The translations under genes and the position numbers were made by a program. The notes beneath the pieces were generated by a model, which saw only the letters and a program-made list of their open reading frames with translations, had not been told where the DNA came from and did no database searches. Below, piece by piece: positions 4,240 to 57,717 of a stretch of DNA of 64,000 nt. Every line of letters begins with the position of its first letter. Position 1 is the first letter of the stretch. Source of the DNA: Herbiconiux sp. A18JL235 (GTDB lineage: Bacteria > Actinomycetota > Actinomycetes > Actinomycetales > Microbacteriaceae); assembly GCF_040939305.1 (NCBI RefSeq), contig NZ_CP162511.1:1-64000 (forward strand), written 5' to 3'.

Positions 4240-5890
4240 GCGTCCGAATTACACCGAAGTAGTTCTGGTGAGAGATCGTCACTGTCGTGCAATGTGCTTG
4301 CCCTCGACCTGTCACATTGTTGCCGCGTCACCCTCGCCCCTTTCACTCCTTCGAGAGGGCGGGTTCGCGGCCACTAAGAAAGCCCAGCGGCTGGGCATGG
4401 CAGCCTCGAGCAATGCCAGTGCTGTTCCCGTCCCCCGGAACTGCACGACCTCTGGCTGCGATCGCTCGTCGCACGCCGGTGCTCGCGCTTCTCGACCATG
4501 GAACCCGTCGAGACTTTCGGTCGCGGCCCGCTCAGGGCTTTAGACGCTCGGGGTGATGTTTCCTCCCGAGTGCCACTGTTACTCTTCGACCGGTCGCAAT
4601 GTGTCTACTCAAGGCGCCGGATGCGGCCCTTTGTGACAACTCGATGCGCCGCCGCCGGTGCATGGTCTGAGAGCAGACCAGATTCTTCGCTGTGCGCGGT
4701 GGTGAACGACCGTCACGGACGCAATCTGGTGGGCGCCCATGCGTCCGCTCGGTTCGCTCTGCGTCAGCCGGTCCCACGCCGGCGGTCGTGCTTCGTAGCA
4801 CCGCAGTCAGTACGCCGTCCGACTACCCCGACTCTCGACACATATCCCTCGGCGCCTATGAGCCCGCAGTCTCCGTCGACGCTTAGTGTCAGCGGCCTCC
4901 TCCCTGCGGGCAGAGCGGGTGGAATGCCCGGTTATGGCCCGATCGGGGCCACGCGGAGGCAGTTTCTCTTCAGTGCGAATTAGGGCTACTGATGTGGTCA
5001 CCGTCGCGCGAGCTCACTTTCACCGGCGCTCTATCCGCCCCTAGCGTCAGCGTCTTCGCTACTACCTCGCGACTAGTACCGTGGAGTAGATCTCTACGTC
5101 CGCGCTCTCCGGCCCTCGTACCGTCATCGACCTGTCACGATCCGCCCCCTCAACCCATGGGATACGGGATATGGCCATCTGGGTCTTGGTCCATGGGAGT
5201 GCCGTCTTACCCCTCGCGGCGGAGGCGCCCGGCGTCCAATCGCGGTATCCCGCGCGTTCGAAGCCACCCGAGCACACCTTGGCGTCGCCGATCGTCACGG
5301 CTCCGGCTCACTGGTCCGCAAGGATGGACCCACCCGCCCCGCGCGCAGAAGCCTCCGGAGACGCGGCCTCATCAGAACCGGCGGGCTCGATCTCGAAGTA
5401 AAGAGCATGCAAGATGGTCTCGGAACTGCAGTTCGCTCAGCCAAAATCGGGGCGTCGTGACTTGATGTTCGTCGAACTTCACGTCACGCCCTGCAACGAA
5501 GCCTGCCTAGATCGATCGCCGTGGGTATGGGCATGCGACACTTCCTGCTCGAAGACGGCGGAGCCAGCCAGCTTGTCGCAATGGGTTGGGGACGATTGCA
5601 TTCTGCGTGCGCCACACTGTGGCGCCAACCGCCGCGCGCCGTCTCCACGTCGAGACCGCTCACGGTCTTCCGGCTCTCGGCCCTCGACGCGTCGCGTCGG
5701 CTGTACGGGCGCATCACACATGCGTGACCCCCGTGGTCAATCAGAAGCCCGCTTGGTACGGCCCCCACATTCGGTGGAGTCCGTCGCATTGGATCACGAA
5801 GAGCACGGACTATGTGCTCAATGGACGTGGTTCGTTCAGTTCGTTCGGCTCTGGCCACCGTTGGGAGATTCAGGGGCATCGTGGGACGGG
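4240..5890. other. Large spacer without a convincing gene (jag-rsmG interval)
   Basis: About 1.65 kb with no open frame that shows the codon pattern of the neighbours. Two lines counted by hand give about 60-63% GC, against roughly 70% in nearby genes, and stops are frequent in all frames. The longest frames (up to 166 codons, for example 5414-5914 plus and 4498-4983 plus) translate into arginine/serine-rich strings that match no family I know. A small hairpin GCCCAGCGGCTGGGC lies near 4382-4396. No tRNA or rRNA is recognisable. The right end runs into the parS cluster. Confidence 0.6.
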
Positions 5891-50473: not shown

Positions 50474-50479
50474 GGAGTG

Positions 50480-51754
50480 ATGGACAGGCCAGCGCTCTCG
50501 GCCGAGCAGCAGAGGGTGTTCGACCTCATCGAAGGCACCCGCGAGCACGTGTTCGTCACCGGTCGCGCAGGCACCGGCAAGTCGACGCTGCTCAACCACC
50601 TCTCGTGGAACACCGAGAAGCAGCTCGTCATCTCGGCACCTACGGGGGTCGCCGCCCTCAATGTCGGCGGGCAGACCATCCACTCCTTGTTCAAGCTGCC
50701 GATCGGGGTCATCGCCGACCACGAGATCGAGCAGGGCGGTGAGGTGCGGAAGCTGCTCAACACCATCGACACCCTCGTCATCGACGAGGTCTCGATGGTG
50801 AACGCCGACCTCATGGATGCGATCGACCGCAGCCTCCGTCAGGCCAGGCAGCGCCCCGCCGAGGCCTTCGGTGGCGTTCAGGTGGTGCTGTTCGGCGACC
50901 CGTACCAGCTCGCCCCGGTGCCGGGCGACGCCGACGAGCGCGCCTACTTCGCCGACCGCTACCGGTCGATGTGGTTCTTCGACGCGCGGGTGTGGGAGGA
51001 GGCGCCGCTCCGTATCGTCGAGCTCACCGAGGTGCACCGTCAGCACGACGACGACTTCAAGTTCATGCTCAACGCCGTTCGGTTCGGCATGGTCACCAAG
51101 GAGATCGCCGACGCGCTGAACGGTGCGGGCGCGCGCACTCCCCCCGCAGACGGCGCGATCACCCTCGCCACACGCAACGATTCGGTGAACCGCATCAATC
51201 AGAGTGCGCTGGCGCGCCTGCCCGGCCGCGTGCTGAGCGCGAAGGCCGAGATCTCGGGCGACTTCGCGGGGCGGGCCTACCCGGCCGATGTGAACCTCGA
51301 GCTCAAGGTGGAGGCCCAGGTGATGTTCCTCCGCAACGACGGCGACCAGCGCTGGGTGAACGGCACGGTCGGCACCGTCACCAAGATCGACTCGACCGTG
51401 TGGGTCGACGTCGACGGCGAGGTGCACGAGGTCGACCCGGTGGCCTGGGAGAAGCACCGCTACTCCTACTCCCCCGAGTCGAAGCAGCTCACCAAGGAGG
51501 TGATCGGCGAGTTCACCCAGTTCCCGCTGCGGCTGGCCTGGGCGGTCACCATCCACAAGTCGCAGGGGCAGACCTACGACGAGGCGATCGTCGACCTCGG
51601 CTCCCGGGTGTTCAGCCCCGGCCAGACCTATGTGGCGCTCAGCCGCCTCACCACTCTCGACGGCCTCTACCTCACCAGGCCGTTGAAGCCCAGCGACATC
51701 ATCGTCGACAAAGCCGTCCTCGCCTTCATGCAGCGCGCCACCCGCCCCCGCTGA
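50480..51754 (+). CDS. Pif1/RecD2-like superfamily 1 helicase
   Basis: A 424-residue SF1B-type ATPase. Motif I is VTGRAGTGKSTLLNHL, motif II is TLVIDEVSMVNADLMD, motif III contains VVLFGDPYQLAPVP, and the C-terminal motif block WAVTIHKSQGQTYDEAIVDL with YVALSRLTTLDGLYL matches Pif1-like helicases. It lacks the N-terminal and C-terminal extensions of RecD. Proteins of this kind unwind 5'-3' and resolve G-quadruplex or forked DNA. The neighbours give no further hint about its job. Confidence 0.88.
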   Translation: MDRPALSAEQQRVFDLIEGTREHVFVTGRAGTGKSTLLNHLSWNTEKQLVISAPTGVAALNVGGQTIHSLFKLPIGVIADHEIEQGGEVRKLLNTIDTLVIDEVSMVNADLMDAIDRSLRQARQRPAEAFGGVQVVLFGDPYQLAPVPGDADERAYFADRYRSMWFFDARVWEEAPLRIVELTEVHRQHDDDFKFMLNAVRFGMVTKEIADALNGAGARTPPADGAITLATRNDSVNRINQSALARLPGRVLSAKAEISGDFAGRAYPADVNLELKVEAQVMFLRNDGDQRWVNGTVGTVTKIDSTVWVDVDGEVHEVDPVAWEKHRYSYSPESKQLTKEVIGEFTQFPLRLAWAVTIHKSQGQTYDEAIVDLGSRVFSPGQTYVALSRLTTLDGLYLTRPLKPSDIIVDKAVLAFMQRATRPR

Positions 51755-51837: not shown

Positions 51838-54800
51838 ATGGCTACGCTGCTGTACAGGATCGGGCGCTTCGCCGCGCATCGGAGCATCGCGGTGATAGTG
51901 GGATGGGTGGTGCTGCTCGGGTTGTTCGTCGGCGGCGCCGGCGCGCTCGGCGGCACCATGAGCTCCTCCTTCGCCATCCCAGGCACCGAGTCGCAGCAGG
52001 CCATCGACATGCTCGACCAGCGCTTCCCGCAGGCCTCGGGGGGCAGCGCCAAGGTCATCTACGTGCCGCCGTCGGGGCAGAAGATCGATGCCTTCGAGAG
52101 CCAGATCGCCGCATCCGTCACCGCGCTCGGCTCGGTCGACCACGTGTCGATGGTGACGGGGCCGTTCGACGCCAACGCGTCGGCGCAGGTCAACGACGAC
52201 AGCAGCATGGCGTACACGACCGTGCAGCTCGACGTCGCGAGCTCCCAGCTGAGCGAGGCCGAGAACGAGGCGATCGTCGCCGCGGGCGAGAAGGCGGCGA
52301 CCGACGGGGTCACGGTCTACTTCTCCGGGGTCACCGACCCGCCGGAGGCCGGGGTCGACTACACCGAGGCCATCGGCCTGCTGGTGGCCTTCGTCGTGCT
52401 CCTCATCACCTTCGGCTCACTGCTCGCAGCCGGCATGCCGCTCGTCACCTCGGTGATCGGCGTCGCCATCACGACCACCACCATCACCATCGCGTCGGGC
52501 TTCGTGAGCATCTCCTCCACGGCGCCGCTGCTCGCCACGATGCTCGGACTCGCCGTCGGCATCGACTACGCCCTGTTCATCGTGGCGCGGCACCGTACCC
52601 AGCTCATCCACGGCATGGACCCGAAGGAATCGGCCGCCACCGCCGTGGCCACCGCGGGCAGCGCGGTCGTCTTCGCAGGTCTCACGGTCATCATCGCCCT
52701 GCTCGGCCTCTCGGTGGTGCAGATCCCCTTCCTCACCGTGATGGGCATCGGCGCCGCCATCTCGGTCGTGATCGCCGTCGTCGTGGCACTCACCCTGCTT
52801 CCCGCCATCCTCGGCCTGTTCGGTCGGCGCCTCATCCCGAAGCCCACCTCGCGCGCCGCTCGGCGCGAGCTCGCGTCCGCCGACCCGCACGCGAAGAAGA
52901 CCACGCTCGGGGCGCGCTGGGTGGCGCTCGCCACCGCCAAGCCCGTCATCACCGTCGCCGTGGTGGTGATCGGGCTGGTCGTCGTCGCGCTCCCCGCCGC
53001 ATCGCTCCGGCTCACGCTGCCCGACGCCGGGTACGACCCGAGCGGCTCGATGTCGCGCGAGGGGTACGACCAGCTGAGCGAGGGCTTCGGCCCCGGCTTC
53101 AACGGGCCACTGCTCATCACCGCCGACATCGCCGCGGTGACAGACCTCGACTCGGCCCGCACCGCGCTGCACGACCAGTTCACCGGCCTCCCCGACGTCG
53201 CGAGCGTGAGCCAGGCGTTGCCGAATGCCACTCTCGACATGCTCATCGTGTCGATCATCCCCGACAGTTCGCCCGACAGCGTCGCCACCGAGCAGCTGGT
53301 GCACGGCATCCGTGACAGCGAAGCCGCCTTCGAGAAGGCGAACGGCTTCGGCTACCAGGTGACCGGGCAGACCGCGCTCGGCATCGACGTGTCGGCGCGG
53401 CTCGCCGACGCCCTGTTGCCGTTCGCGGTGGTCGTGGTGGGCCTGTGCATCATCCTGCTCACCATCGTCTTCCGCTCCCTCGCAGTGCCCATCTCGGCGA
53501 CCATCGGCTACCTGCTCTCGGTGGCTGCGTCGTTCGGCATCGTCACCGCGGTGTTCGAGTGGGGCTGGCTCGCCGATGTGCTCGGCGTGGCCAAGGTGGG
53601 CCCGGTCATCAGCTTCTTCCCCATCCTCCTCATGGCGGTGCTGTTCGGCCTCGCCATGGACTACCAGGTCTTCCTGGTGTCGCGGATGCGCGAGGTGTAC
53701 AGCGAGACCGGCGACGCCCACTTCTCGGTGCGCCACGGTTTCGTGGGAGCCGCCCGGGTGGTGACGGCTGCCGCCTGCATCATGTTCGCCGTGTTCGCGA
53801 GCTTCGTGCCGGGCGGCAACGCCGTGCTGCAGCCGATCGCCCTCGGCCTCGCGGCGGGCGTGTTCATCGACGCCTTCCTCGTGCGCATGACCTTCATCCC
53901 GGCACTCATGATGCTGCTCGGTAAGCTCGGCTGGGCCATCCCGAAGCGGCTGGCGCGCATCCTGCCGAACGTCGACCTCGAGGGCGAGGGCGTGCGCGAG
54001 ATGCTCGACGCGGTGCGGTGGCGTCCGTTGCCCGCGCCCGACGCGCCGCCCTTCGCCGTGGCCGCGGAGCGCGCGGTCGTCGAGTCCGCCGCCGAAGGCG
54101 AGCTCGTCGCCCCCTTCGACGTGCGCGCCGAGGCGGGCGACCTGGTGATCGTGACCGGAGCGGTCGGCACCCACCCCGAGGCCGTCGTCGCCGCGATGGC
54201 CGGGAGGCAGCGGCTGCTCGAGGGCCACCTGCGCGTGCTCGACCGCCCCCTCCCCGTGCACGCGGCCGAGCTGCGCCGCCACAGCGTGCTCGTGGCGCGG
54301 CCGGTCGACGACGACCTGCTGGCCGACCGCATCCCGCTCGGCTCGTTGCCCGCCGTCGCACGGAGGGTGCAGGAGCGGCTGCAGCGCGAGCTCGGCGAGG
54401 AACTCGCTGAGCTCTGGGGCGGAGCTCTCGCGGAGGAGTGGATGCGCCAGCTCGCGGAGGCCACGGCCGCCGCGGCGACGGTGACCGACCGGCGCGGGCG
54501 CGCCACCGCCAAGGTGGGGCTCGTCGCCGTCGACGGCACCGGCATCCCCACCGCCCACCTGCAGCACGCGCTCTCGATCGTCGACGCAGCACTGCCGCTC
54601 ACCGCCACGCTCGTCGTCGCCCACCACGGGGCGCGGCTCGAGGCGGGCACCCGTCCTGTGCAGGTGGTGGAGCTCGCCGCGGTGCGTCCGGAGCCGCGGG
54701 CGCTGCCGGGCCTGCCGGGTCTGCCGGCGGCACCGGATGGCGCTCCGGGAGACCAGGCGGCCCTCGACGCACCATCGGGACGCGGTGGCGGCCCGGCCCC

Positions 54801-54891
54801 CGACGACCCGGGGCCGCAGCGAGGAGGCGACTCCCCCGACGACCCCGACCAGAACCCGCCCACCGAGCCCCGACAGGAGGTGACAGCATGA
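51838..54891 (+). CDS. MMPL exporter with C-terminal degenerate ABC-ATPase-like domain
   Basis: A 1017-residue protein. Residues 1-720 form a complete MMPL/RND transporter with 12 helices (GIDYALFIVARHRTQL and AMDYQVFLVSRMREVY are the two GxDY-type motifs). Residues 720-950 add a cytoplasmic domain that follows the order of an ABC nucleotide-binding domain: a strand then AGDLVIVTGAVGTHPEAVV where Walker A should be, RVLDRPLPVHAAELRRH, a Walker B-like strand KVGLVAVDGTG, and TLVVAHHG at the H-loop position. The Walker lysine, the LSGGQ signature and the Walker B Glu are all missing. The last 65 residues are Pro/Gly/Asp-rich. ATG at 51838 with GGGAGGGG upstream; the end overlaps the YhgE gene. 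Confidence 0.85.
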   Translation: MATLLYRIGRFAAHRSIAVIVGWVVLLGLFVGGAGALGGTMSSSFAIPGTESQQAIDMLDQRFPQASGGSAKVIYVPPSGQKIDAFESQIAASVTALGSVDHVSMVTGPFDANASAQVNDDSSMAYTTVQLDVASSQLSEAENEAIVAAGEKAATDGVTVYFSGVTDPPEAGVDYTEAIGLLVAFVVLLITFGSLLAAGMPLVTSVIGVAITTTTITIASGFVSISSTAPLLATMLGLAVGIDYALFIVARHRTQLIHGMDPKESAATAVATAGSAVVFAGLTVIIALLGLSVVQIPFLTVMGIGAAISVVIAVVVALTLLPAILGLFGRRLIPKPTSRAARRELASADPHAKKTTLGARWVALATAKPVITVAVVVIGLVVVALPAASLRLTLPDAGYDPSGSMSREGYDQLSEGFGPGFNGPLLITADIAAVTDLDSARTALHDQFTGLPDVASVSQALPNATLDMLIVSIIPDSSPDSVATEQLVHGIRDSEAAFEKANGFGYQVTGQTALGIDVSARLADALLPFAVVVVGLCIILLTIVFRSLAVPISATIGYLLSVAASFGIVTAVFEWGWLADVLGVAKVGPVISFFPILLMAVLFGLAMDYQVFLVSRMREVYSETGDAHFSVRHGFVGAARVVTAAACIMFAVFASFVPGGNAVLQPIALGLAAGVFIDAFLVRMTFIPALMMLLGKLGWAIPKRLARILPNVDLEGEGVREMLDAVRWRPLPAPDAPPFAVAAERAVVESAAEGELVAPFDVRAEAGDLVIVTGAVGTHPEAVVAAMAGRQRLLEGHLRVLDRPLPVHAAELRRHSVLVARPVDDDLLADRIPLGSLPAVARRVQERLQRELGEELAELWGGALAEEWMRQLAEATAAAATVTDRRGRATAKVGLVAVDGTGIPTAHLQHALSIVDAALPLTATLVVAHHGARLEAGTRPVQVVELAAVRPEPRALPGLPGLPAAPDGAPGDQAALDAPSGRGGGPAPDDPGPQRGGDSPDDPDQNPPTEPRQEVTA

Positions 54892-57005
54892 CGAAGCTCC
54901 GCTCCCTCGTCAGACGCGGCGACAGCGGCGGCCTCTCACCGCTCGCGCGCCGTATCGCGATCGTGCTCGCCGTGCTGACGCCCCTGCTCATCGCCGGGGT
55001 GGCCGTGACGGCGCTGCGGGCCGAGGCCGGCACGAGCGCTTCGGGCTCGGGCGGCTCGAGCTCCGACGCGGCCGGCGCGACCTCACCGAGCCTGCCCGCG
55101 GCCGTGGTCAACCTCGACCAGATCGTCTACGTCGACGGCACCACGGTCACCCCCGCGGCCTCCGACGGCAGCGGAACCGGCTCCCCCGTCGCCGCCGGCA
55201 AGCTCCTCGTCAGCCAGCTCACCGCCGGAACGGCCGGCCAGGGCTTCTCCTGGACGGTGACCGACCCCGACACCGCGGCTGTGGGCCTGTCGTCGGGCGA
55301 GTTCGCCACCGTGGTCACGATCCCTCAGCAGTTCTCGGCCGACTACGTCTCCATCGCCACGAGCGATCCCGTGCAGGCACAGGTGCAGGTGCAGACGAAC
55401 GGCGCGAGCAGCTACGTCACCGAGCTCCTCGCCAGTGCCCTGTCGGCCAATCTCCAGGCCACGATCTCGCAGACGGCGACCAAACAGTACGTCACCGGTC
55501 TTCTCGGCGGCTTCACCGAGCTGAACGGACAGCTCACCGAGGCGGCGAACGGGGCCGGGCAGCTCGCCTCGGGGGCGAACACGCTCGCCGGATATCAGGA
55601 CCAGCTCGCCACCGGAATGGCCGGCGCGGCGCAGGGTGGGGCGGGGCTGGACACGGCCGTGCAGGCGCTCAACACCGGCATGCGCCAGATCGCTACGGGC
55701 ACGGCCGACCTGCCGGTCTACGCCGACGCCATCGCCGTCGGGTCGACCGGGGTCACCGACGGCATCGGGCTGCTCAAGCAGCGCCTTGCCGACGAGACCG
55801 CGAAGAGCTACGGCATCGACGCCCAGCAGCAACAGCTCGAGAGCGACATCGCGGCCCTGAGCGACGCCGTGCCCGGTCTCACGGATGAGGAGATCCAGTC
55901 CCGTCTCGGCGAGCTGCAGTCCACGGCGGCAGGAATACGGGTGCAGAGCTTCGGCGTGACCCTCGGGCTCGGACTCGACGCGCTCGGGGTGACGGCGCTC
56001 GAAGACTTCTCGAACCAGGTGAGCGGAGGTGCCGCCGAGTTCGCCCAAGACCTACCCCTGCTCACCTCGACGCTCACCGAGGTGGCGAACGGCACGGAGA
56101 AGCTCGCCTCCGGCACGGCCGAGTTGGCGAAGGGCCTCGGCGATCTCTCCACGGCCGCCTCGGGCATCGCCGGTGGCGGAACGGAGCTCGCCACCAACAC
56201 GGGCAAGCTGGCCTCCGGTCTCTCCGAGGCCGCCGCCGCCGTTCCGAGCTACACGAAGGAGCAGCAGGACTCGATCTCCACGGTCGCGGCCACCCCCGTG
56301 GTGACGCAGCAGAGCGACATCGACGCGCTGCCCACCCCCGCGGCCGCGATCGCCGCGGTCGCCGTCCCGCTCGCCCTGTGGATCGGCGCGTTCGCGATCT
56401 ACCTGCTGCTCACGCCGTTCAGCCGCCGCGAGCTGGCCTCGACGGCGTCGACCTTCCGCGTCGTCGTCGCCGCCCTCGTCCCCGCCGCCGCGCTCGCCCT
56501 GGTGCAGGCTGCCGTGGTGGCGGTCGTGCTGTTCGCGGTGGGGGCGCATCCGCTTCACGTGATGGGCGCCATCCTGTTCTCGGCGGTGATGTCGGTGAGC
56601 TTCGTGATGCTGCACCAGGGGCTCGTCGCTTTGTTCGGGCAGGCGGGACGCCTGGTGTCGCTCGCGCTGGTGGTGGTGCAGGTGGCGGCTGCCGCCGTCA
56701 TCATCCCGAACGGGCTCAGTTCGCCGTTCTACACCGGGCTCGCGCAGCTGCTGCCGCTGTCGCATGCCATCACGGGAATGCACGCGCTCATCGGTGGAGG
56801 GTCGGCGGCGGTGGCCGCTCAGGAGGCGCTGGTGCTCGTCGTCTTCGCCGCCATCGGGCTCGTGCTCACACTGGTCGCGGTGACGCGCGCGCGGGGGCGG
56901 AGCGCCGTGGTGCTCGCGGCGGGAGCGACGCGCGGGCCGGGTGCCGCGGGCGGATCGGGCGCGCCGGCGCTGCCCGCTTCACCGACGGCCGCGCCCGCCG
57001 CCTAG
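54888..57005 (+). CDS. YhgE/Pip-type membrane protein
   Basis: A 705-residue protein with one N-terminal helix (residues 24-45), a long extracellular region and about six C-terminal helices, as in the YhgE/Pip and ABC-2-type permease-like family. The extracellular part has repeating Gly-Ala-Leu heptads (for example GAGQLASGANTLAG and GTEKLASGTAELAKGL), predicted as coiled coil. Relatives include a phage receptor (Pip) in lactococci and the type VII secretion component EsaA/YueB. The ATG overlaps the stop of the MMPL gene, so the two products are probably used together. Confidence 0.87.
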   Translation: MTKLRSLVRRGDSGGLSPLARRIAIVLAVLTPLLIAGVAVTALRAEAGTSASGSGGSSSDAAGATSPSLPAAVVNLDQIVYVDGTTVTPAASDGSGTGSPVAAGKLLVSQLTAGTAGQGFSWTVTDPDTAAVGLSSGEFATVVTIPQQFSADYVSIATSDPVQAQVQVQTNGASSYVTELLASALSANLQATISQTATKQYVTGLLGGFTELNGQLTEAANGAGQLASGANTLAGYQDQLATGMAGAAQGGAGLDTAVQALNTGMRQIATGTADLPVYADAIAVGSTGVTDGIGLLKQRLADETAKSYGIDAQQQQLESDIAALSDAVPGLTDEEIQSRLGELQSTAAGIRVQSFGVTLGLGLDALGVTALEDFSNQVSGGAAEFAQDLPLLTSTLTEVANGTEKLASGTAELAKGLGDLSTAASGIAGGGTELATNTGKLASGLSEAAAAVPSYTKEQQDSISTVAATPVVTQQSDIDALPTPAAAIAAVAVPLALWIGAFAIYLLLTPFSRRELASTASTFRVVVAALVPAAALALVQAAVVAVVLFAVGAHPLHVMGAILFSAVMSVSFVMLHQGLVALFGQAGRLVSLALVVVQVAAAAVIIPNGLSSPFYTGLAQLLPLSHAITGMHALIGGGSAAVAAQEALVLVVFAAIGLVLTLVAVTRARGRSAVVLAAGATRGPGAAGGSGAPALPASPTAAPAA

Positions 57006-57015
57006 GCCCCGGGCC

Positions 57016-57669
57016 CTAAGCGACCTGGGCGGCCTTGGCGTCGGCGAGGTCGAGGAAGAGCTCGGTGTTGAAGCGGTAGGCGACGAGCACCTCGTCGATC
57101 ACGCGATCGCGCTCGGCGTCGTCCCAGTCGACGGCGTCGAGCTGGGTACGGTAGATCTCCTTGAACTCCTTCGGCTTCGCGATGTCGCCGAACAGGTAGA
57201 AGCCCACGCCGTTGGTCTCGAAGCCGAACTGCCGCTGCATCAGCGTGCGGATGATCTGCCCACCGGAGAGGTCGCCGAGGTAGCGCGTGTAGTGGTGCGC
57301 GATGAACCCGCCGTTCCATGTGGCGGCCACCTCTTCGATGCGCTTCACATAGCGCTGCGTGGTGGGCAGCGGCTCGATCTGCTCGCGCCACTCGGCGCCG
57401 AGGAGGAACTCGAGGTCGGCCTCGATGGCGGGCAGCCGGGTGAGCTTCGGCGAGATGAACGCGGCGGCGACGGGGTCGTTCTTCATGCGGTCGGCGGCTG
57501 CCTCGAGGGCTTCGTAGATGAAGTAGTGCTGGGCGACCAGGGCGATGTAGTCGTCTTTCGAACCCTTGCCGCTCATCAGGTCGGTCATGAAGCCGGCGCC
57601 CTCGCTGTCGCCGTGGCCCGACCAGGTGCGCTCGCGAAGAGCCTGAGAGAAGGGGATCACTGCGGCCAT
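57016..57669 (-). CDS. hmuO: Heme oxygenase (biliverdin-producing)
   Basis: A 217-residue canonical heme oxygenase that opens heme to biliverdin, iron and CO. The proximal histidine is His19 in ERTWSGHGDSEG, and the distal helix is RYLGDLSGGQIIRTLMQRQF. The length fits the HmuO group. The ATG at 57669 is chosen by the family start; further in-frame codons upstream give non-matching sequence. A DtxR-type iron box lies 30 bases upstream, so expression is expected when iron is scarce. It is downstream of a DUF2470 gene. Confidence 0.95.
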   Translation of the reverse strand: MAAVIPFSQALRERTWSGHGDSEGAGFMTDLMSGKGSKDDYIALVAQHYFIYEALEAAADRMKNDPVAAAFISPKLTRLPAIEADLEFLLGAEWREQIEPLPTTQRYVKRIEEVAATWNGGFIAHHYTRYLGDLSGGQIIRTLMQRQFGFETNGVGFYLFGDIAKPKEFKEIYRTQLDAVDWDDAERDRVIDEVLVAYRFNTELFLDLADAKAAQVA

Positions 57670-57698
57670 GTGTTCATTCCCAGCTAGTCGAGTGGAAG

Positions 57699-57717
57699 TT
57701 AGTATCACCTAACCTAG
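57699..57717 (-). promoter_or_regulatory. DtxR/IdeR-type iron box before hmuO
   Basis: On the minus strand CTAGGTTAGGTGATACTAA matches the consensus TTAGGTTAGSCTAACCTAA at 14 of 19 positions. It overlaps the stop codon of the DUF2470 gene and is just ahead of hmuO. Confidence 0.7.

Follow-up and report, generated by a model that had tools for sequence, protein, structure and literature searches.

The window analysed here is a 64,000-nucleotide stretch of Herbiconiux sp. A18JL235 (contig NZ_CP162511.1, positions 1 to 64,000), in which two consecutive forward-strand genes encode an MMPL exporter and a YhgE/Pip protein. Gene A (51838..54891) runs from an ATG at 51838 to a TGA at 54891 and encodes 1017 residues, ending in a C-terminal domain derived from the nucleotide-binding domain (NBD) of ATP-binding cassette (ABC) ATPases, termed pseudo-NBD below. 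Gene B (54888..57005), reading from an ATG at 54888 to a TAG at 57005, encodes the 705-residue YhgE/Pip protein and shares four bases, ATGA (54888..54891), with the stop of gene A; the sequence AGGAGGTG lies immediately 5' of its start. The overlap and both protein lengths agree exactly with the original prediction made for this locus. We found that actinobacterial YhgE is regularly accompanied by an NBD-like protein, encoded separately or fused to an MMPL protein, and this pairing points to an undescribed two-part envelope transporter.

The MMPL core of gene A comprises residues 1–715 (51838..53982), with two PF03176 stretches scoring 265.8 bits against a Pfam gathering cut-off of 20.5. A structure search with the full-length model (mean pLDDT, a per-residue model confidence, of 85.2) returned MmpL3 as the closest solved fold, whereas the score for the MmpL3 equivalog NF052608 was 171 bits, far under its cut-off of 1400. 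Pattern search and an alignment of 53 sequences located two Asp-Tyr pairs, Asp243-Tyr244 in transmembrane helix (TM) 4 (52564..52569) and Asp608-Tyr609 in TM10 (53659..53664). Both motifs were present in 68 of the 70 fused MMPL proteins collected in the survey described below, as judged by pattern search, and were invariant across the alignment. We take these pairs to be the proton relay known from work on MmpL3, for which drive by the proton gradient is established; with the relay intact, the MMPL half of gene A can, by analogy, run on the proton gradient. The number of hydrophobic segments ahead of the pseudo-NBD is even (12), suggesting that this domain is cytoplasmic.

Gene B carries a C-terminal ABC-2-like membrane domain (residues 466–668; 56283..56891), recognised by TIGR03062 with 131.1 bits (cut-off 102.2) and by ABC2_membrane_3 (PF12698) with 40.4 bits (cut-off 31.6). 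Ahead of it lies a predicted extracellular helical or coiled region (residues 206–460; 55503..56267) with xxxLxxG heptads, matched by TIGR03057 in three stretches at 24.5 bits against 18.6. This region also matched chain 8qae with an E-value of 2.6e-5, presumably a designed coiled coil, going by its name. The N-terminal extracytoplasmic domain (residues 68–205; 55089..55502) scored 78.3 bits with TIGR03061, below the cut-off of 96.15 though with an E-value of 4.8e-22, and two YhgE paralogues in the same genome scored 169.9 and 118.0. Members of the YhgE/Pip family have been described as surface proteins and as receptors for phages; to our knowledge, no function has been agreed for them. A passage of PMC3924187 classes the phage infection protein as Transporter Classification (TC) family 9.B.74, with ABC-2 homologues.

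To describe the partners of YhgE, we ran TIGR03062 against 79 genomes of the class, 120 of the family and 296 of the class. From these, loci were picked by hand (all 13 places over the cut-off outside the own genome in the 79-genome search, 80 places in the family and 40 regions from the 296-genome search); 135 loci were fetched, making 136 with the window, and held 140 YhgE genes at a threshold of at least 60 bits to a profile of our own. The canonical ABC ATPases of two loci (L036, L051) were taken out of the partner profile and the counts. An NBD-like domain was located directly upstream of 131 of the 140 YhgE genes, as a separate gene in 61 cases and at the end of an MMPL protein in 70, where 61:70 is not a natural ratio because lower-scoring, mostly fused-type places were over-represented. 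The expectation that an NBD-like protein would be the natural partner of YhgE is thus borne out. Since the arrangement of genes A and B recurs in further genera and families, the pairing being present, by the tree labels, under 14 family codes of Actinomycetes, it is more than chance. A stop/start overlap of 4 or 1 nucleotides between partner and YhgE is possible in 60 of the 70 fused pairs and in 42 of the 61 separate ones, counting in-frame start codons available rather than annotated starts. In four named plasmid loci from actinobacteria, the NBD-like gene is always separate, and in two of them it is annotated as an ATP-binding protein, whereas an annotated NBD-like neighbour was found for none of six Bacillota and Deinococcota plasmid YhgE genes in a gene table that is incomplete; the pairing therefore looks actinobacterial. 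Open frames of YhgE longer than 1400 residues, considered as triple fusions, were rejected, being upstream frames that overlap the MMPL gene in another frame. In locus L112, one NBD-like gene is split over two overlapping frames (4691–5503 and 4707–5396), perhaps through a frameshift or sequencing error, and a second, whole copy is present in the same locus.

The Herbiconiux genome itself has three YhgE genes over the cut-off, at 56, 248 and 697 kb of contig C1. One of the two further loci (L015) has a TetR gene upstream of an MMPL gene (988 residues) whose product ends in a domain like that of gene A, and a YhgE gene (807 residues) that overlaps the MMPL gene by 4 bases. The other (L016) contains a TetR gene, a separate NBD-like gene of 291 residues and a YhgE gene of 659 residues, joined by successive ATGA overlaps. 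A single chromosome thus holds the dead domain next to YhgE both alone and fused to MMPL. ABC_tran gave 149 matches in this genome and none in the three YhgE loci, with 150 of 212 first-look candidates scored.

We compared whether adjacency to YhgE follows the domain or the MMPL protein in 14 Microbacteriaceae genomes, selected for having fused pairs, which contain 48 MMPL genes. Manual comparison of coordinates identified 19 MMPL genes adjoining a listed YhgE gene, all with the domain; when the remaining 29 were fetched, one had the domain and 28 did not. That one (L220) is followed directly by a YhgE gene scoring 38 bits, under the earlier threshold. Hence, a YhgE gene adjoins 20 of 20 domain-bearing MMPL genes versus 0 of 28 domain-less ones (Fisher 6e-14), and a repeat YhgE search of the 14 genomes at an E-value of 0.001 detected none next to the 28. 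The closest that a domain-less MMPL gene comes to YhgE is 8 kb (genome G085), with an NBD-bearing MMPL gene in between. Among twelve matches on named contigs, YhgE follows 9 of 9 MMPL genes with the domain and 0 of 2 without, the twelfth match being an ordinary ABC ATPase; the positives come from Planobispora, Microbacterium, and Propionibacteriaceae and Micrococcales bins, and eight are new, L190 being the query's own record. Locus L226 (G168:C27:163000-169000) is informative in encoding an MMPL protein of the fused lineage, at 911 bits to the profile of that lineage, without a pseudo-NBD and without an adjoining YhgE gene. Linkage to YhgE tracks the domain and not the MMPL protein. The original prediction had named genes lying far apart and never linked as the outcome to count against it; this survey of co-occurrence instead found every NBD-bearing MMPL gene of the 14 genomes beside YhgE.

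The pseudo-NBD occupies residues ~741–950 (54058..54687) and is followed by a Pro/Gly/Asp-rich tail (residues 951–1017; 54688..54888) modelled at low confidence, with pLDDT mostly below 50 from residue 958. The last ~310 residues of gene A matched no Pfam family at E ≤ 1, PF00005 included, and gave weak matches to the ABC ATPase models DevA (E 0.019) and CcmA (E 0.065). Comparing profiles, 56 fused domains without a P-loop-like motif matched 30 canonical ABC ATPases at 98.2% (E 3e-14), and the window's own Herbiconiux clade matched the separate NBD-like family at 84% (E 7.6e-6); the MMPL control gave 0.8%. Judged from these profiles and through its relatives, the C-terminal domain is NBD-derived, sharing common ancestry and the NBD fold with ABC ATPases. 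The modelled domain, with pLDDT mostly above 90, resembles the separate NBD-like protein in its order of strands and helices. A search of solved structures with the isolated C-terminal domain yielded chance matches only (E 0.14 or worse), and fold searches with the full-length model, which barely test the pseudo-NBD as their lists were filled by MmpL and RND chains, had no ABC ATPase among the matches listed.

The catalytic motifs of an ABC ATPase are missing throughout the partner domains. In the window, Pro aligns at the place of the Walker A Lys, LSGGQ is absent and VDG replaces DE(P). Across the survey, none of the 131 partner domains has LSGG[QEKR], which 23 of 30 control loci do have, or the catalytic Glu that follows Walker B, which all 30 aligned controls possess. 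The Walker A Lys is kept in 16 of 131 domains by alignment column, the figure quoted throughout (15 by regular expression), versus 30 of 30 controls, and Arg is the commonest residue at its place. The spacing from Walker A to Walker B falls below 80 residues in 21 of 70 fused domains versus 113–133 in the controls, as if the helical subdomain had been cut back. The separate pseudo-NBD family has an invariant PDRHGG motif (38 of 38 sequences; residues 171–176 in P0023), which in the Microbacteriaceae copies sits near the Walker B/D-loop place.

Despite these losses, the domain is maintained. Compared with the same-genus orthologue L081, the ratio of nonsynonymous to synonymous substitution rates (dN/dS) was 0.33 for both the pseudo-NBD and YhgE and 0.21 for the MMPL core; with L082 it was 0.34 for the pseudo-NBD, and the short tail of gene A gave 0.35 and 0.61. 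By this rough estimate (pairwise NG86, with G+C at third codon positions above 0.9), the pseudo-NBD is under purifying selection, and we rejected its identification as a decaying relic. The same two genomes share the neighbourhood of the window, in which a PIF1-like helicase gene (50477–51754), gene A, gene B and a heme oxygenase gene (57016–57708) follow one another.

We mapped these features on a quick-search tree of 146 YhgE C-terminal domains, with 41 weak branches among its 143 inner ones and a scattered outgroup. Fused versus separate architecture needs two changes, and the fused label against all other rows needs three (shuffled mean 48.9; 0 of 500 shuffles as low), indicating that YhgE lineages keep their partner type and that the two are inherited together. 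On the same quick tree, the tandem YhgE genes of L051 and L147, which have no NBD-like gene, stand apart from the other actinobacterial YhgE and group with one of Parageobacillus.

On balance, we favour the reading that genes A and B encode the two parts of a single envelope exporter, built from an MMPL motor, a non-catalytic NBD dock and YhgE. The MMPL half would be an MmpL3-like flippase or exporter working on the proton gradient. The pseudo-NBD would be an ABC nucleotide-binding domain that does not hydrolyse ATP and is retained as the dock that an ABC-2-type permease normally expects; we propose this role because an NBD-like half that lacks every catalytic motif is nevertheless kept, beside YhgE, and because ABC-2 proteins bind NBDs elsewhere. 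It could grip the cytoplasmic face of YhgE, so holding the MMPL motor and YhgE together, and perhaps relay conformational changes between the two. YhgE would be the membrane partner, its long extracellular helical rod guiding cargo off the membrane and into the wall. Where the NBD-like gene is separate, its product would hold YhgE without an MMPL protein. That the two proteins form a complex working in the export direction, on a lipid or other hydrophobic compound as the most likely cargo, is what we infer from these data.

The nature of the cargo is suggested by the MmpL3-like fold and by the response of Saccharopolyspora hirsuta to cholesterol. In that species, a YhgE gene (F1721_04135) and an MMPL gene (F1721_04140) were up 3.82-fold and 3.33-fold, respectively, bear consecutive locus tags and belong to 28 cholesterol-induced genes; the passages concerned propose that F1721_04135 may serve to export lipid components, and they do not discuss the pair itself (PMC9782250). 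YhgE is also reported, in passages of the respective sources, to carry mutations in isolates of Enterococcus with reduced sensitivity to ginkgolic acid and to licochalcone A (PMC8754111, PMC9634178), and a table that we interpret as referring to Bacillus subtilis lists it as lower on 2- than on 1-butanol (PMC11728337). The Enterococcus and butanol observations are weak hints of a hydrophobic link at most. YhgE is further named in PMC12584985 as a hotspot of recombination located upstream of Mce genes, an observation that plays no part in the present reading.

Several observations weigh against a two-part exporter of this kind. Sixty-one YhgE genes have an NBD-like partner with no MMPL gene in the fetched stretch, and MMPL is therefore optional to the YhgE-NBD unit. 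For nine of the 140 YhgE genes no partner was found, namely those of L031 and L047 (a TetR-like gene upstream instead), the tandem pairs in L051 and L147, and those of L132, L142 and L038, the last at a contig edge. Taken alone, the tie of the window's Herbiconiux clade to canonical ABC ATPases is weak, reaching 20% (E 0.0011) in the profile comparison. Selection appears looser in a separate-partner pair (L016, L033), with a dN/dS of 0.53. Eight of the 70 fused loci, the window included, have no nearby TetR-like gene, and regulation so differs among fused loci.

We hold other explanations to be less probable. Rather than a passive dock, the domain might bind ATP or another ligand without hydrolysis and act as a switch on YhgE or MMPL. 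The 16 domains with the P-loop Lys also have the Walker B Asp, and the invariant PDRHGG of the separate Microbacteriaceae copies hints at a specific site; we nevertheless consider a switch unlikely, given the Pro and VDG of the window domain and the shortened Walker A-to-B spacing of 21 of the 70 fused domains.

Taken to its full extent, the scenario of the original prediction would start from an active ABC ATPase working for YhgE, which became joined to MMPL in this lineage and whose activity ended because of that fusion, with the proton gradient taking over. One part of this stands: the NBD-like gene is a YhgE partner and has been joined to MMPL, and the P-loop Lys persisting in some domains makes a nucleotide-binding ancestor likely. 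The loss through fusion does not, since the separate partners without MMPL are equally dead (0 of 61 for LSGG[QEKR] and 0 of 61 for the catalytic Glu). In addition, the Lys survives in similar proportions of the fused (10 of 70) and the separate (6 of 61) domains and needs at least nine changes on the YhgE tree, so that its loss is scattered and not tied to fusion. We therefore regard this history as improbable.

We find it similarly hard to credit that the genes encode two independent exporters kept together for co-expression only, the domain being regulatory inside MMPL without contacting YhgE. Most loci, 62 of the 70 fused and 46 of the 61 separate ones, do have a TetR-like gene nearby, which recalls ordinary inducible efflux operons, but linkage tracks the domain, none of the 28 domain-less MMPL genes adjoining YhgE; at other loci, a domain of this kind is encoded next to YhgE on its own; and the fused-lineage MMPL of L226, which is without the domain, has no YhgE neighbour either. 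Very improbable, finally, is an EsaA-like action of YhgE in type VII secretion with MMPL as an accessory: the predicted resemblance to EsaA is real (TIGR03929, E 4e-8) but at 33.1 bits lies under the family cut-off of 122, and the genome's two long EccC-like open reading frames (C1:1271815 and C1:4078143, under the curated cut-off) are distant from its YhgE loci.

Returning to the two-part exporter, its components can be set against known systems. Gene A is 21–23% identical to chains of MmpL3, the trehalose monomycolate flippase of the MMPL/RND superfamily, and differs in carrying a C-terminal pseudo-NBD and in its proposed coupling to YhgE. Gene B resembles YhgE/Pip proteins (TC 9.B.74) in its TIGR03062 domain, heptad repeats and ABC-2-like membrane domain, the NBD-like partner distinguishing the actinobacterial members from the plasmid-borne genes of Bacillota and Deinococcota as annotated. 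The ABC ATPases of ABC-2 and lipid exporters (LptB, HrtA, MlaF, FtsE) differ from the partner domains in the catalytic motifs counted above. In MmpL4/5-MmpS and RND tripartite pumps, a proton-driven MMPL protein likewise works with a second protein that has an extracytoplasmic part; YhgE, however, is neither an MmpS nor a periplasmic adaptor, and coupling would here occur via a cytoplasmic domain. EsaA/YueB of type VII secretion is matched weakly, in its N-terminal model and below the cut-off, and no EccC gene is linked. No description of a YhgE-NBD or MMPL-NBD-YhgE pairing was found in the literature searched, most subscription journals lying outside it; the component families are known, and the dead-NBD link and the MMPL fusion appear undescribed.

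A regular dead-ABC-ATPase partner, sometimes welded to MMPL, would make actinobacterial YhgE one half of a transport machine. We tentatively suggest, at somewhat less than even odds, that the fused pairs represent a hybrid class: an RND/MMPL motor, itself run by the proton gradient, would act on the ABC-2-type membrane protein YhgE by way of an NBD that has permanently ceased to hydrolyse ATP, and the YhgE rod would take the place of the coil or adaptor that other MMPL pumps have in the periplasm. The separate version would be a widespread "ABC transporter without ATPase". Such an arrangement may show how the proton gradient could take over as the energy source of an ABC-type permease.

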